IMG/VR virus record: IMGVR_UViG_3300042472_000628
Span: 1 to 64,000 of that record
From: a virus
Strand: one strand, 5' to 3'
DNA length: 64,000 nt
In this document: in pieces, positions 46,121 through 48,790 of the stretch
How the letters are laid out: every line of letters begins with the position of its first letter
Position numbering within the stretch: the first letter of the stretch is position 1
Position numbers and translations under genes: made by a program
The notes under the pieces: model-generated
Seen by the model: only the letters and a program-made list of their open reading frames with translations
Told to the model about the DNA's origin: nothing
Database searches by the model: none

Positions 46121-46149
46121 TGAAACAATAAAAAACTTAGTAGTATAAT
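46121..46149 (+). promoter_or_regulatory. Middle-type promoter of the Ro60-like gene
   Basis: TGAAACAA (46121-46128), 15 bases, TATAAT (46144-46149); it is preceded by TTTT, giving TTTTG at the host-type -33 position too. It also shares the TATAATw(t/a)TCAAAT sequence with the clamp promoter at 60759. Confidence 0.6.
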
Positions 46150-46178
46150 TATCAAATTAGCAATTTAACATAGACGTT

Positions 46179-47606
46179 ATGAAATTAGTAGACGCTTTAA
46201 GACAAGAAGACATTTTAACAGAAAATGGCATGGCCACAAACTCAAGCTCATTAAATGCTTGCGTAGATTTATTCTTTAACATTGGTGCAATGAGAGGCCA
46301 AGACAAACAACGTTTGATCGCAACCTTTTCGAAAGCGTTCAATGAAGATCCTAGACGTGCAATGAAATTGTTATTTTGGGCACGTGATGTTAGAGGTGGT
46401 GCAGGTGAACGTCAAGTTTTCAAAGACATCTTAGTTTACTTAGCTGAGAATCATGACTTGGTTTTAAAACCAAACTTACACTTGATTTCAGAATATGGTC
46501 GTTGGGATGACTTGTTAGTTCTTACAGGAACTTATTTAGAGAAAGAAGCATTTACATTAATCTCAGATGCAATCATTGCTGAGAATGGTTTATGTGCTAA
46601 ATGGATGCCACGTAAAGGTGCAGTAGCTGAAAAGTTACGTAAATTTACAGGTATGTCACCAAAACAATATCGTAAATCATTAGTTGGTTTGACAAGTGTT
46701 GTTGAAACTAAAATGTGTGCTAAAGATTGGGACTCTATCGAGTTTGGTAAATTGCCATCAGTAGCATCAGCACGATACCAAAAAGCATTTGGTAAAAATG
46801 CATACGAAAGTTATTCAGCTTACATCGCTTCTTTAGTGAAAGGTGAAGCTAAGATCAATGCAGGTGCAGTATATCCATATGATGTGATTAAGTCATTGAC
46901 TCATGGAAATGCAACAGTTGCTAACGAGCAATGGAAAGCTTTACCAAACTACATGGAAGGTGCAAACGATATGATTTTACCAGTTGTGGATGTTTCGGGT
47001 TCAATGTCAAGTCCAGCAAGTAAAACTGTAACTTGTATGGATGTTGCAATCTCTTTAGGTCTTTATATTTCTGAAAGAAATGAAGGTGCTTTTAAAGATG
47101 CATTCGTTACATTCTCAGATAATCCAAAATTACAAGTAGTTTCTGGATCTTTAGCTGACAGATATGCACAAATGTCGACAGCTGATTGGGGAATGAGTAC
47201 AAACTTAGAAGCTACATTTAAATTGATTTTAGATCAAGCTACTAAGCACAAATTATCTCAAGACGAAATGCCAAATAAAATCTTAATCTTATCAGATATG
47301 GAATTTAATTCGGCAACTGGTTCTAGAGGTTGGGGAAGTAATAGAACTGAAGCTTGGAATCCAACTGCTCAACAAATGATTGAGAACATGTACGATGTAG
47401 CAGGTTACACAATGCCTCAAATCGTTTATTGGAACATTCAATCCAGAAATGGTGGTGTACCAGTAGCATTTGACAAAGCGGGAACTGCATTGGTATCAGG
47501 ATTCTCGCCAGCAATTATGACAAGTTTGCTTGGAGGTGATATTGAATCACCACAACAAATAATGGATAAAACAATCTTGAGCGAGAGATACGCTCCAATT
47601 GTTTAG
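46179..47606 (+). CDS. Ro60-like TROVE/vWA RNA-binding protein (DUF2828-type)
   Basis: 475 residues. The N-terminal 260 residues are helical with the TROVE-like pattern AMKLLFWARDVRGGAGERQV (about 57-76) and LHLISEYGRWDDLL. A von Willebrand A domain follows with the metal site DVSGSMS (Asp271) and later LILSDMEFNSATGS. This is the Ro60/Rsr layout, known to bind Y RNAs and misfolded RNAs through the helical ring and vWA edge. The DUF2828 family of phage and cellular proteins has the same layout. A structured RNA starts 10-20 bases after its stop. Role in RNA quality control or RNA sequestration is inferred. Confidence 0.75.
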   Translation: MKLVDALRQEDILTENGMATNSSSLNACVDLFFNIGAMRGQDKQRLIATFSKAFNEDPRRAMKLLFWARDVRGGAGERQVFKDILVYLAENHDLVLKPNLHLISEYGRWDDLLVLTGTYLEKEAFTLISDAIIAENGLCAKWMPRKGAVAEKLRKFTGMSPKQYRKSLVGLTSVVETKMCAKDWDSIEFGKLPSVASARYQKAFGKNAYESYSAYIASLVKGEAKINAGAVYPYDVIKSLTHGNATVANEQWKALPNYMEGANDMILPVVDVSGSMSSPASKTVTCMDVAISLGLYISERNEGAFKDAFVTFSDNPKLQVVSGSLADRYAQMSTADWGMSTNLEATFKLILDQATKHKLSQDEMPNKILILSDMEFNSATGSRGWGSNRTEAWNPTAQQMIENMYDVAGYTMPQIVYWNIQSRNGGVPVAFDKAGTALVSGFSPAIMTSLLGGDIESPQQIMDKTILSERYAPIV

Positions 47607-47615
47607 ATATATAAT
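47606..47615 (+). promoter_or_regulatory. Late-like box just upstream of the structured RNA
   Basis: GATATATAAT overlaps the stop of the Ro60-like gene and lies about 11 bases before the first predicted stem (47626), the expected spacing of a -10 box from an RNA start. It would give the RNA its own promoter. Confidence 0.5.
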
Positions 47616-47959
47616 AAAAGAAATTAGGTTCCTTACAGCAAACAATACACAAGCAATTACAAATTAAGCAAAAAGGAATGGAACCTGGCGGATAGGTACA
47701 GCAAAAAGTACAAACACAGCTATGATAGAGTCTAGATAAAAACGTGGAGTTTTAAAATGGTTCGCCCTCTAAAACAGTGAAGCGCTAGACAAGGTGAAGG
47801 TTAACACTAGAAAATGGATCACAAGTCATACCACCCCAATAGGTGCAATTAGGATGTAGTCGAAGTATAGTAGACTCTCGCGAAAGCAAAGCCGAAGACT
47901 ATAAAGAGGGTTATTCTGCCGAGAAGAAAATCACGAACAACTATCCCGTATTAGATTAG
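47616..47959 (+). ncRNA. Structured non-coding RNA next to the Ro60-like gene
   Basis: The only gene-free stretch over 300 bases (47607-48055). It has no long reading frame and, unlike other gaps, is GC-balanced and stem-rich. Visible pairings: AGGTTCC (47626-47632)/GGAACCT (47680-47686); GUAC/GUAC (about 47696-47711); GTCTAG (47730-47735)/CTAGAC (47785-47790) enclosing GTTTTA (47749-47754)/TAAAAC (47770-47775), itself capped by GG-UUCG-CC. Also CACC/GGTG (near 47832-47844) and TATAGT (47866-47871)/ACTATA (47898-47903) with an inner GC-GAAA-GC tetraloop. It ends with the terminator at 47960. I cannot match it to a known class. Neighbour genes suggest a Y-RNA-like partner of the Ro60-like protein (inference). 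Exact ends uncertain. Confidence 0.65.
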
Positions 47960-48007
47960 AATCCTGGTAAAAATTGTTAATAACTTTTTTAACCAGGATT
48001 TTTTTTT
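47960..48007 (+). terminator. Terminator of the structured RNA
   Basis: Nine-base-pair stem AATCCTGGT (47960-47968)/ACCAGGATT (47992-48000), extended by A5/T5 pairing inside, then seven T. The loop contains the GTTAATAAC palindrome of the next promoter, so terminator and operator overlap. Confidence 0.85.
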
Positions 48008-48040
48008 GTCAATTATTATTCGTATATTAGCTTTATAATT
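47976..48040 (+). promoter_or_regulatory. TATATTAG promoter with operator, copy B
   Basis: GTTAATAAC (47976-47984), 38 bases, TATATTAG (48023-48030). Nearly identical to copy C over GTCAATTATTATTCG and TATATTAGCT; drives the nucleotidyltransferase gene. Confidence 0.55.
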
Positions 48041-48055
48041 AAAAACAAACAAATT

Positions 48056-48790
48056 ATGCCACAAATATTTAAAGTAGGAGGTTGTATTAGAGATAAGTTT
48101 CTCGGAGTCGACTCAAAGGACATAGATTTCACATTCGTTTTAGACGATTTAAGTGGAACAGTAGAAGATGGTTTTCAAATCATGACGGATTGGATGACTG
48201 AAAGAGGATTTGAAATATTCTTAAGTACTCCAGATTGTTTTACGATTAGAGCTAAGTTTCCAAAAGATCACCAATTCACTGGACTTGTTGCAGATTTTGT
48301 AATGGCAAGAAAAGAAGTCGGTTACACTGAAGGAACTCGTCGACCAATCTTAGAACTTGGAACTCTCGAAGATGATTTACTTCGTCGAGATTTCACAGTC
48401 AATGCTTTAGCAGAAGATATTGATGGAAACCTTATTGATCTTTTTGGTGGAGTAGATGACCTAAAAGCCGGTATTTTAAGAACTCCATTGGATCCACGTA
48501 TCACTATGATGGACGATCCATTGAGAATCTTAAGAGCTCTTAGATTTACAATCACTAAAGATTTGACAATGTCTATGGATATTTGGGAAGCTATTCAGCA
48601 ACCAGGAATCTTAAAGAAATTAGAATTGACAGTAAGTAGCCAAAGAATCAGAGACGAGATTGAAAAAATGATGAAATTTAATACCGTTAGAAGTTTTAGA
48701 CTTTTAATGGATGTAGATGCTATCATTCCAGGATTTTTAGAATTAATCTTCAAAGATGGAATGTGGTTAATGCCAACCTTTAAACAATAA
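48056..48790 (+). CDS. CCA-adding enzyme/poly(A) polymerase-like nucleotidyltransferase
   Basis: 244 residues with the class II tRNA nucleotidyltransferase head and neck motifs: VGGCIRD (7-13), DIDF with Asp22 and Asp24 as metal ligands, LEDDLLRRDFTVNALA (about 107-122), DLFGGVDDLKAGILRT, and DDPLRILRALRF (about 149-160). Cellular enzymes have 400 or more residues; the body and tail that grip tRNA are missing or reduced, so RNA substrate choice may differ. It could repair or tail phage or host RNA 3' ends. Its neighbours, the Ro60-like protein and structured RNA, make that RNA a candidate substrate (inference). Confidence 0.8.
   Translation: MPQIFKVGGCIRDKFLGVDSKDIDFTFVLDDLSGTVEDGFQIMTDWMTERGFEIFLSTPDCFTIRAKFPKDHQFTGLVADFVMARKEVGYTEGTRRPILELGTLEDDLLRRDFTVNALAEDIDGNLIDLFGGVDDLKAGILRTPLDPRITMMDDPLRILRALRFTITKDLTMSMDIWEAIQQPGILKKLELTVSSQRIRDEIEKMMKFNTVRSFRLLMDVDAIIPGFLELIFKDGMWLMPTFKQ

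Follow-up and report, generated by a model that had tools for sequence, protein, structure and literature searches.

A Ro60-like gene and an adjoining family of candidate Y-type RNAs in a phage genome, with a likeness to the Class I RNAs of Dictyostelium

The locus and the question it raises

The locus described here raises the question of whether a phage carries its own Ro ribonucleoprotein (Ro-RNP), that is, a Ro60-like protein together with a cognate RNA. It lies in a stretch of 64,000 nucleotides (nt), here called the window, which comprises positions 1 to 64,000 of the 165-kb virus record IMGVR_UViG_3300042472_000628; positions are in window numbering unless stated otherwise. A non-coding stretch (47607-48055) separates an open reading frame (ORF) of 475 amino acids (aa) from one of 244 aa (Table 1). 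An earlier note, made from the sequence alone, had read the three as a TROVE/vWA protein, a structured RNA and a nucleotidyltransferase forming one functional module. Their consecutive order is as described, and a phage-borne Ro-RNP is well supported, with the RNA adjoining homologous Ro-like genes in related phages, which was the check that the note itself had proposed; the enzyme as a third part of the module did not survive comparison of gene order. The phage probably encodes a Ro-RNP consisting of a DUF2828-type Ro60-like ring and of several cognate Y-type RNAs forming one family (P1 and P2 in the window and three further copies at 112 kb of the same phage), with a shared putative Ro-binding module, the CCA enzyme being separate.

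The Ro60-like protein

The 475-aa protein matches the Pfam families DUF7788 (E-value 1.3e-52) and DUF2828 (E-value 2e-34) (PF11443/PF25043) and the PHROG_850 family of 'RNA-binding protein' (E-value 5e-155). The Pfam TROVE family (PF05731) has no match in this protein or anywhere else in the window genome. Searches of the PDB with the protein gave only repeat-protein noise at the level of sequence and borderline TROVE matches at the level of profiles. An AlphaFold2 model built from 47 phage homologues (IMG/VR loci and the window) has a mean predicted local distance difference test (pLDDT) score of 81 and a predicted template-modelling (pTM) score of 0.76, and shows a helical-repeat ring followed by a vWA domain. 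When this model was compared to the PDB with Foldseek, Ro60 structures ranked first, with nine Ro60 chains matched at E-values of 1e-8 to 2e-5. The top match was the Ro60 of Thermus phage phiLo (9kop, E-value 1e-8), with Xenopus Ro60 (2i91, TM 0.6) and D. radiodurans Rsr (2nvo) among the other best matches. As the predicted fold comparison, and not the Pfam family, settles its identity, the protein is identified as Ro60-like; on this model it is a Ro60 fold belonging to a sequence family separate from TROVE. The earlier designation therefore holds for the fold but not for TROVE as defined by Pfam, DUF2828 and DUF7788 standing in its place.

Residues D271, S273, S275, T341 and D373 are invariant across 41 homologues, which is consistent with a vWA metal site. 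Homologues are present in 681 phage records, in some of which they are annotated as 'Ro-like'. In one further Ro gene (4987-6399 of G038, the contig of L306), the Ro-like frame contains 11 TGA codons, suggesting a phage in which TGA is recoded as an amino acid.

Structured RNA downstream of the Ro-like gene

The stretch after the Ro-like gene is made up of two units, a hairpin of ~60 nt (P1) and a domain of ~255 nt closed by a long-range helix (P2), followed by a terminator. Folding of the single sequence was not significant on either strand (z -1.36) and Rfam at its curated thresholds gave no match in the window; it is the comparative evidence for which the RNA is taken as real. It is a conserved and structured element with tight genetic linkage to the Ro-like gene, being retained beside that gene in ~48 related phage loci of IMG/VR, with 75-95% conservation in dozens of other phages. 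A search with the whole RNA using nhmmer finds only relatives with ~66% Ro identity or more, and a DNA search of named phages gave no match.

Every complete close relative has P1, whose stem shows compensatory changes (AGGUUCC/GGAACCU here, GGUUUC/GAAACC elsewhere), and the window copy is matched at an E-value of 7e-8 by R1, a covariance model of the hairpins in which related P1 copies were included. The closing helix of P2 is fully paired (100%) in 25 sequences, among them the variants GGAUAG/CUAUCC, GGAUCG/CGAUCC and GGAACG/CGUUCC, while the middle of its ~245-nt insert is exchanged between phages. Over the four helices (21 pairs) in the alignment of relatives, 98.1% of helix cells are paired, and covariation is 0.224, versus 0.079 for shuffled alignments and at most 0.069 when the helices are slid. 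The hairpin P4 has changes on both sides in three of its four pairs (98% paired). P3, with four pairs of which 93.9% of cells are paired, varies little and for that reason is only weakly supported; it may be an alternative to the open P2 motif. The terminator stem has a wholly different sequence in some relatives, in which hairpin and T run are nevertheless kept. The structure and the terminator proposed in the earlier note are thus borne out, and its promoter-like box was not confirmed.

Table 1. Features of the Ro-like locus in the window.
Feature	Position	Strand	Basis
Ro60-like ring protein (DUF2828 + DUF7788 vWA; phrog_850), 475 aa	46179..47606	+	Pfam, PHROG, predicted fold
Whole structured RNA	47626-48007	+	conserved beside Ro gene, compensatory changes, terminator
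P1, minimal Y/Class-I-type hairpin	47626..47687	+	covariance model, comparative alignment
P1 parts: 5' stem AGGTTCC; motif UUACAGCAA; 3' strand GGAACCU, then G	47626-47632; 47633-47641; 47680-47686	+	
P2, second module copy closing ~245-nt insert	47690..47946	+	closing-helix covariation
P2 parts: GGAUAG; motif GUACAGCAA; 3' strand CUAUCC	47690-47695; 47696-47704; 47941-47946	+	
P3, short hairpin GUAC-AGCAAAAA-GUAC, overlaps P2 motif	47696..47711	+	weakly supported
P4, hairpin UUCU-GCCG-AGAA, near 3' end of P2 insert	47914..47925	+	two-sided changes
Strong intrinsic terminator hairpin AATCCTGGT..ACCAGGATT-T run, RNA 3' end	47960..48007	+	sequence and relatives
Minimal class II tRNA nucleotidyltransferase, 244 aa, outside module	48056..48790	+	Pfam, PHROG

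A near-copy (83%) of the terminator occurs 1.4 kb downstream (49438-49478), and a part of it 20 nt long recurs unaltered at 133.8 kb of the same phage. A sub-structure located before the P2 3' stem also appears to be common to otherwise different phages (L116 after position 4291, L178 and L179), consisting of a short UUCCG..GGAAG hairpin, an A-rich run and CACGAAC/CUCGCC, which suggests a recurring type of P2 effector.

A stem-plus-motif module accompanying DUF2828 genes

In both P1 and P2, the 5' strand of the stem is immediately followed by N-U-A-C-A-G-C-A-A. The unit that is shared, with two copies in the window RNA, can be described as a stem of 6-7 base pairs (bp) followed by NUNCAGCAA on the 5' side. 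Distant Ro phages have no RNA that can be aligned, yet possess hairpins with this motif in the gap after the Ro gene; the wider family was recognised by reading the stem and motif by eye and then scanning for them. In the scan of named phages, hairpins, often in tandem, were found beside the DUF2828 gene in Aeromonas, Felixounavirus, Staphylococcus, Enterococcus, Campylobacter, Bacillus, Synechococcus and Vibrio phages, and with a slightly relaxed motif in Listeria and Mycobacterium phages. In many phages the copies lie directly up- or downstream of Ro; others occur in tandem arrays, among transfer RNA (tRNA) genes or on the Ro strand at distances of 6-150 kb. Domains resembling tRNA are enclosed by some copies.

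With the strict motif and a 6-bp stem, 74 elements were counted on the gene strand at less than 1 kb, in 43 of 64 dereplicated loci. The corresponding count for the opposite strand was 6, and 200 permuted motifs gave a mean of 1.7 (maximum 9). In an alignment of 45 hairpins all seven stem pairs change on both sides somewhere, with covariation of 0.887 against 0.224 for shuffled alignments; 96.8% of cells are paired, a figure partly built in because the hairpins were picked for a complementary 6-mer. This selection does not explain why stems of so many sequences adjoin a motif that stays the same.

Whole-genome, pattern-only and cellular searches

R1 has matches in all 24 Ro-phage records that were searched whole. 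In 18 such records all 50 matches at an E-value of 0.004 or below are on the Ro strand and 27 of them are no more than 2 kb from Ro (1.0 expected), the model having been trained on some hairpins of the records tested. Seven Ro-less phages gave no match at an E-value of 1 or below. Synechococcus phage B23 (MN695335.1), intended as the eighth Ro-less control, gave four weak matches (E-values 0.13-0.54), and through these a Ro-like gene was found between them (218540-219997).

A search of 2.9 million viral contigs using two RNA patterns only returned 38 contigs, 25 of which encode a Ro-like protein, while two permuted patterns returned 2 and 0 contigs from the same set. The association extends to cellular loci: at 80 bacterial and archaeal DUF2828 loci, some of whose contigs may be phage, 66 of 68 R1 matches (E-value of 1 or below) are on the gene strand, and 31 of the 80 loci have a match with an E-value below 0.01, mostly 90-500 nt upstream.

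Y-type features of the RNAs

The window RNA resembles Y RNAs in its position near a Ro gene and in having ends that pair into a motif-bearing stem (covariation in P1 and P2). The permuted tRNA-like domain of YrlA (RF02553) is absent from it. In Enterococcus phage EfV12 the RNAs upstream of Ro share the stem AAGAA...UUCUU and the ACAGC motif, and a YrlA tRNA-like domain lies inside two of them (45.2 and 34.3 bits); the permuted domain is recorded for Enterococcus phage L096. In the window phage itself, three further elements stand in a row by a tRNA cluster (112032-112314 of the record, G000; L182:1533-1815). Read from the sequence, the loop of the first is tRNA-like and permuted, of YrlA type, with the T-arm before the D-arm, though it is not called YrlA by Rfam. 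Given that some copies enclose tRNA-like domains, the stem and motif appear to be the portion of a Y-type RNA that stays constant and faces Ro, and the loop appears to be its variable effector part.

Resemblance to the Class I RNAs of Dictyostelium

The best Rfam match of P1 is Class I RNA (RF01414; 28.9 bits, E-value 0.002), and the same model is also the best match of the three elements at 112 kb (29.6, 24.7 and 21.9 bits). Class I RNAs measure 42-65 nt, begin with AAG and finish with CUGU; they have a stem of 6 bp with a motif of 11 nt by its 5' strand, and have been described as unique to dictyostelids in a survey that took in eukaryotes and one bacterium (PMC7919456). P1 can be aligned with the model in its terminal stem, its UUACAGCAA motif, its CUG end and its length of ~60 nt, and so can the 112-kb copies, which deviate slightly in motif, length or 3' end. 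Across 16 whole Ro-phage records, the majority of the Class I model's matches at an E-value of 0.05 or below were beside the Ro gene. In the collection of papers that was searched, none mentions Class I RNA in connection with both bacteriophage and Dictyostelium.

Two results weigh against the link. The Class I scores, which reach ~30 bits (21.9-29.6 bits for the window-phage elements), are all under the Rfam gathering threshold of 41.5 bits, for which reason the phage RNAs are called Class-I-like and not members, and phage T4, which has no Ro, gave one Class I match (E-value 0.0024) in an apparent coding start. The likeness could well be fortuitous, a short motif beside a stem having arisen independently with no shared partner implied; this doubt concerns the Class I link only and is a serious one. 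Such a motif has little information content, the organisms are very distant and the protein known to bind Class I RNA belongs to the RNA recognition motif (RRM) proteins, Rnp1A/Cibp (PMC7919456). Chance would, however, have to bring together the stem, the UUACAGCAA core immediately following its 5' strand, a start with AAG and an end with CUG, and also account for the phage matches of a Dictyostelium model falling mostly beside a Ro gene. Less firmly than for the phage RNAs, we infer that the Class I RNAs, too, are of Y type and partner a Ro-like protein, whether through descent or convergence. It is suggested tentatively, at somewhat less than even confidence, that one kind of Ro-RNP, formed by a DUF2828-type ring and stem/NUNCAGCAA RNAs, spans phages, bacteria, archaea and dictyostelids, with Class I as its eukaryotic form, and that the tRNA-like or ~245-nt effector domains that phages have loaded onto the module redirect RNA decay in infected cells.

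Proposed function and alternatives

The RNA is probably bound by the Ro-like protein. In the mechanism proposed, the ring would bind P1 and P2 through the shared stem-plus-NUNCAGCAA module, and the variable loop or insert would act as effector, either blocking the ring or recruiting or mimicking RNA factors such as polynucleotide phosphorylase (PNPase) and tRNA-binding enzymes. The inserts would thereby decide what else the complex recruits or excludes, and the complex may steer decay and quality control of structured RNA, or shield tRNAs, during infection. In bacteria, Y RNA is known to tether Rsr, the bacterial Ro, to PNPase, and the tRNA-like part of YrlA has been suggested as a competitive inhibitor of anticodon nuclease (PMC7790460). 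Control of structured-RNA or tRNA decay is preferred over counter-defence, although little separates the two and this is the least certain part of the proposal.

Several observations count against the Ro-RNP. The strict motif is absent within 1 kb in 21 of the 64 loci, some of which have copies 6-150 kb away, and 13 of the 38 contigs found by pattern have no Ro, several of these being fragments. The survey of the module covered Ro-like loci of DUF2828 type, and P3, if formed, would pair part of the P2 motif.

A different reading takes the RNA as a cis-acting element of the 3' untranslated region (UTR) or other regulatory element by which Ro autoregulates its own mRNA, in place of trans-acting RNAs. 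P1 begins only ~20 nt past the Ro stop codon and copies are immediately beside Ro in many phages, in agreement with this reading, but it is made improbable by the distant copies on the Ro strand, the tandem arrays, the copies among tRNAs and those enclosing tRNA-like domains, and by an ORF of 106-121 aa that sits between Ro and the RNA in several relatives. It is more improbable still that the hairpins belong to tRNA clusters, as processing, spacer or mobile repeats, and accumulate near Ro for unrelated reasons. Copies are indeed interleaved with tRNA genes in Felixounavirus UAB_Phi87, in Enterococcus EfV12 and at 112 kb of the window phage; however, the copies differ in stem sequence but not in pairing or motif, no tRNA stands beside Ro in the window, where ARAGORN found neither tRNA nor transfer-messenger RNA (tmRNA), and Ro-less phages (whose tRNAs were not counted) have no matches. 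A phage Ro-RNP with trans-acting Y-type RNAs is thus the reading retained.

The neighbouring nucleotidyltransferase

The class II-type nucleotidyltransferase of the earlier note was confirmed in the 244-aa product, which has the PolyA_pol head domain expected of the family (E-value 1.8e-18) and matches phrog_24229 (245 positions, E-value 9e-60). Only the head was matched in Pfam, with no match to the C-terminal body and tail tRNA-binding domains. The phage has 27 tRNA genes, and 24 or 25 of the 25 tested (24 clearly) have no encoded CCA, on which ground the protein is taken as the CCA-adding enzyme of the phage; most simply, it adds CCA to phage tRNAs, is unrelated to the Ro RNA and is a chance neighbour. 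A three-part module, in which protein, RNA and enzyme cooperate and the enzyme extends or repairs the 3' ends of the Ro RNA, agrees with the consecutive order in the window and with a genuine CCA/poly(A)-class enzyme, but is highly improbable and was rejected on synteny, since of ~45 loci with the RNA the enzyme follows it in only two (the window with the identical contig L004, and the close relative L005), it occurs in the Ro-less phages Cellulophaga phi17:2 and Microbacterium Cece, the RNA ends in an ordinary terminator and 24 or 25 of the tested tRNA genes lack an encoded CCA, as noted above.

Other features of the window

An L10-leader and other weak Rfam matches in the window were rejected. 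A structural-looking protein is encoded at 27949-29163, where the end of the ORF resembles a Hint/intein domain (CLIGGTKITLSDGS...VVTHNL). The ORFs at 55932-57344 and 61566-62774 each resemble one half of a family B DNA polymerase and are separated by ribonucleotide-reductase-like genes, possibly representing a split polymerase gene. A 615-aa protein (41327-43174) has a domain resembling cytidylyltransferase/nicotinamide mononucleotide (NMN) adenylyltransferase, which hints at phage NAD metabolism.

Comparison with known systems

A study by Chen in 2014 is said to have placed Y RNAs near Ro60 in more than 250 bacterial and phage species, and on that account the existence of a Ro-RNP in a phage is in itself no novelty. 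What is new is that the stem-plus-NUNCAGCAA module accompanies DUF2828 genes widely. The widespread and uncharacterised DUF2828 'RNA-binding' proteins of phages, bacteria and archaea thereby gain a candidate RNA partner with a defined motif and, if the Class I RNAs are indeed Y-type RNAs, their partner and function become directly testable.

Among known proteins, the 475-aa product is closest to Ro60/TROVE (9kop/9l5y, 2i91, 2nvo), with which it shares the predicted helical-repeat and vWA fold (TM-score 0.4-0.6) and vWA Ser/Asp residues that are invariant in its homologues; it differs in having only 12-18% sequence identity to these over the structural alignment. The 'Ro-like RNA binding protein' gp54 of mycobacteriophage Nicholas belongs to the same DUF2828 family (34% identity), and the hairpin module lies 41-243 nt downstream, the associated RNA being unannotated in the examined stretch of the Nicholas record.

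With the bacterial Y RNA/YrlA and Rsr system (RF02553; PMC7790460) the locus has in common a non-coding RNA gene beside a gene for a Ro60-fold protein, a terminal stem with a variable effector part and, in some phage copies, a permuted tRNA-like domain. It differs in that the protein partner is of DUF2828 type, the YrlA consensus in Rfam lacks NUNCAGCAA, and most copies of the module have no tRNA-like domain, P2 holding another and larger insert. The Class I RNAs (RF01414; PMC7919456) are alike in length, in the 6-bp stem that joins their ends, in the motif by the 5' strand, in their AAG and CUG(U) ends and in their variable loop. P2 is far larger than these, and the module described here is found in phages, bacteria and archaea, where it is linked to a Ro-like gene.

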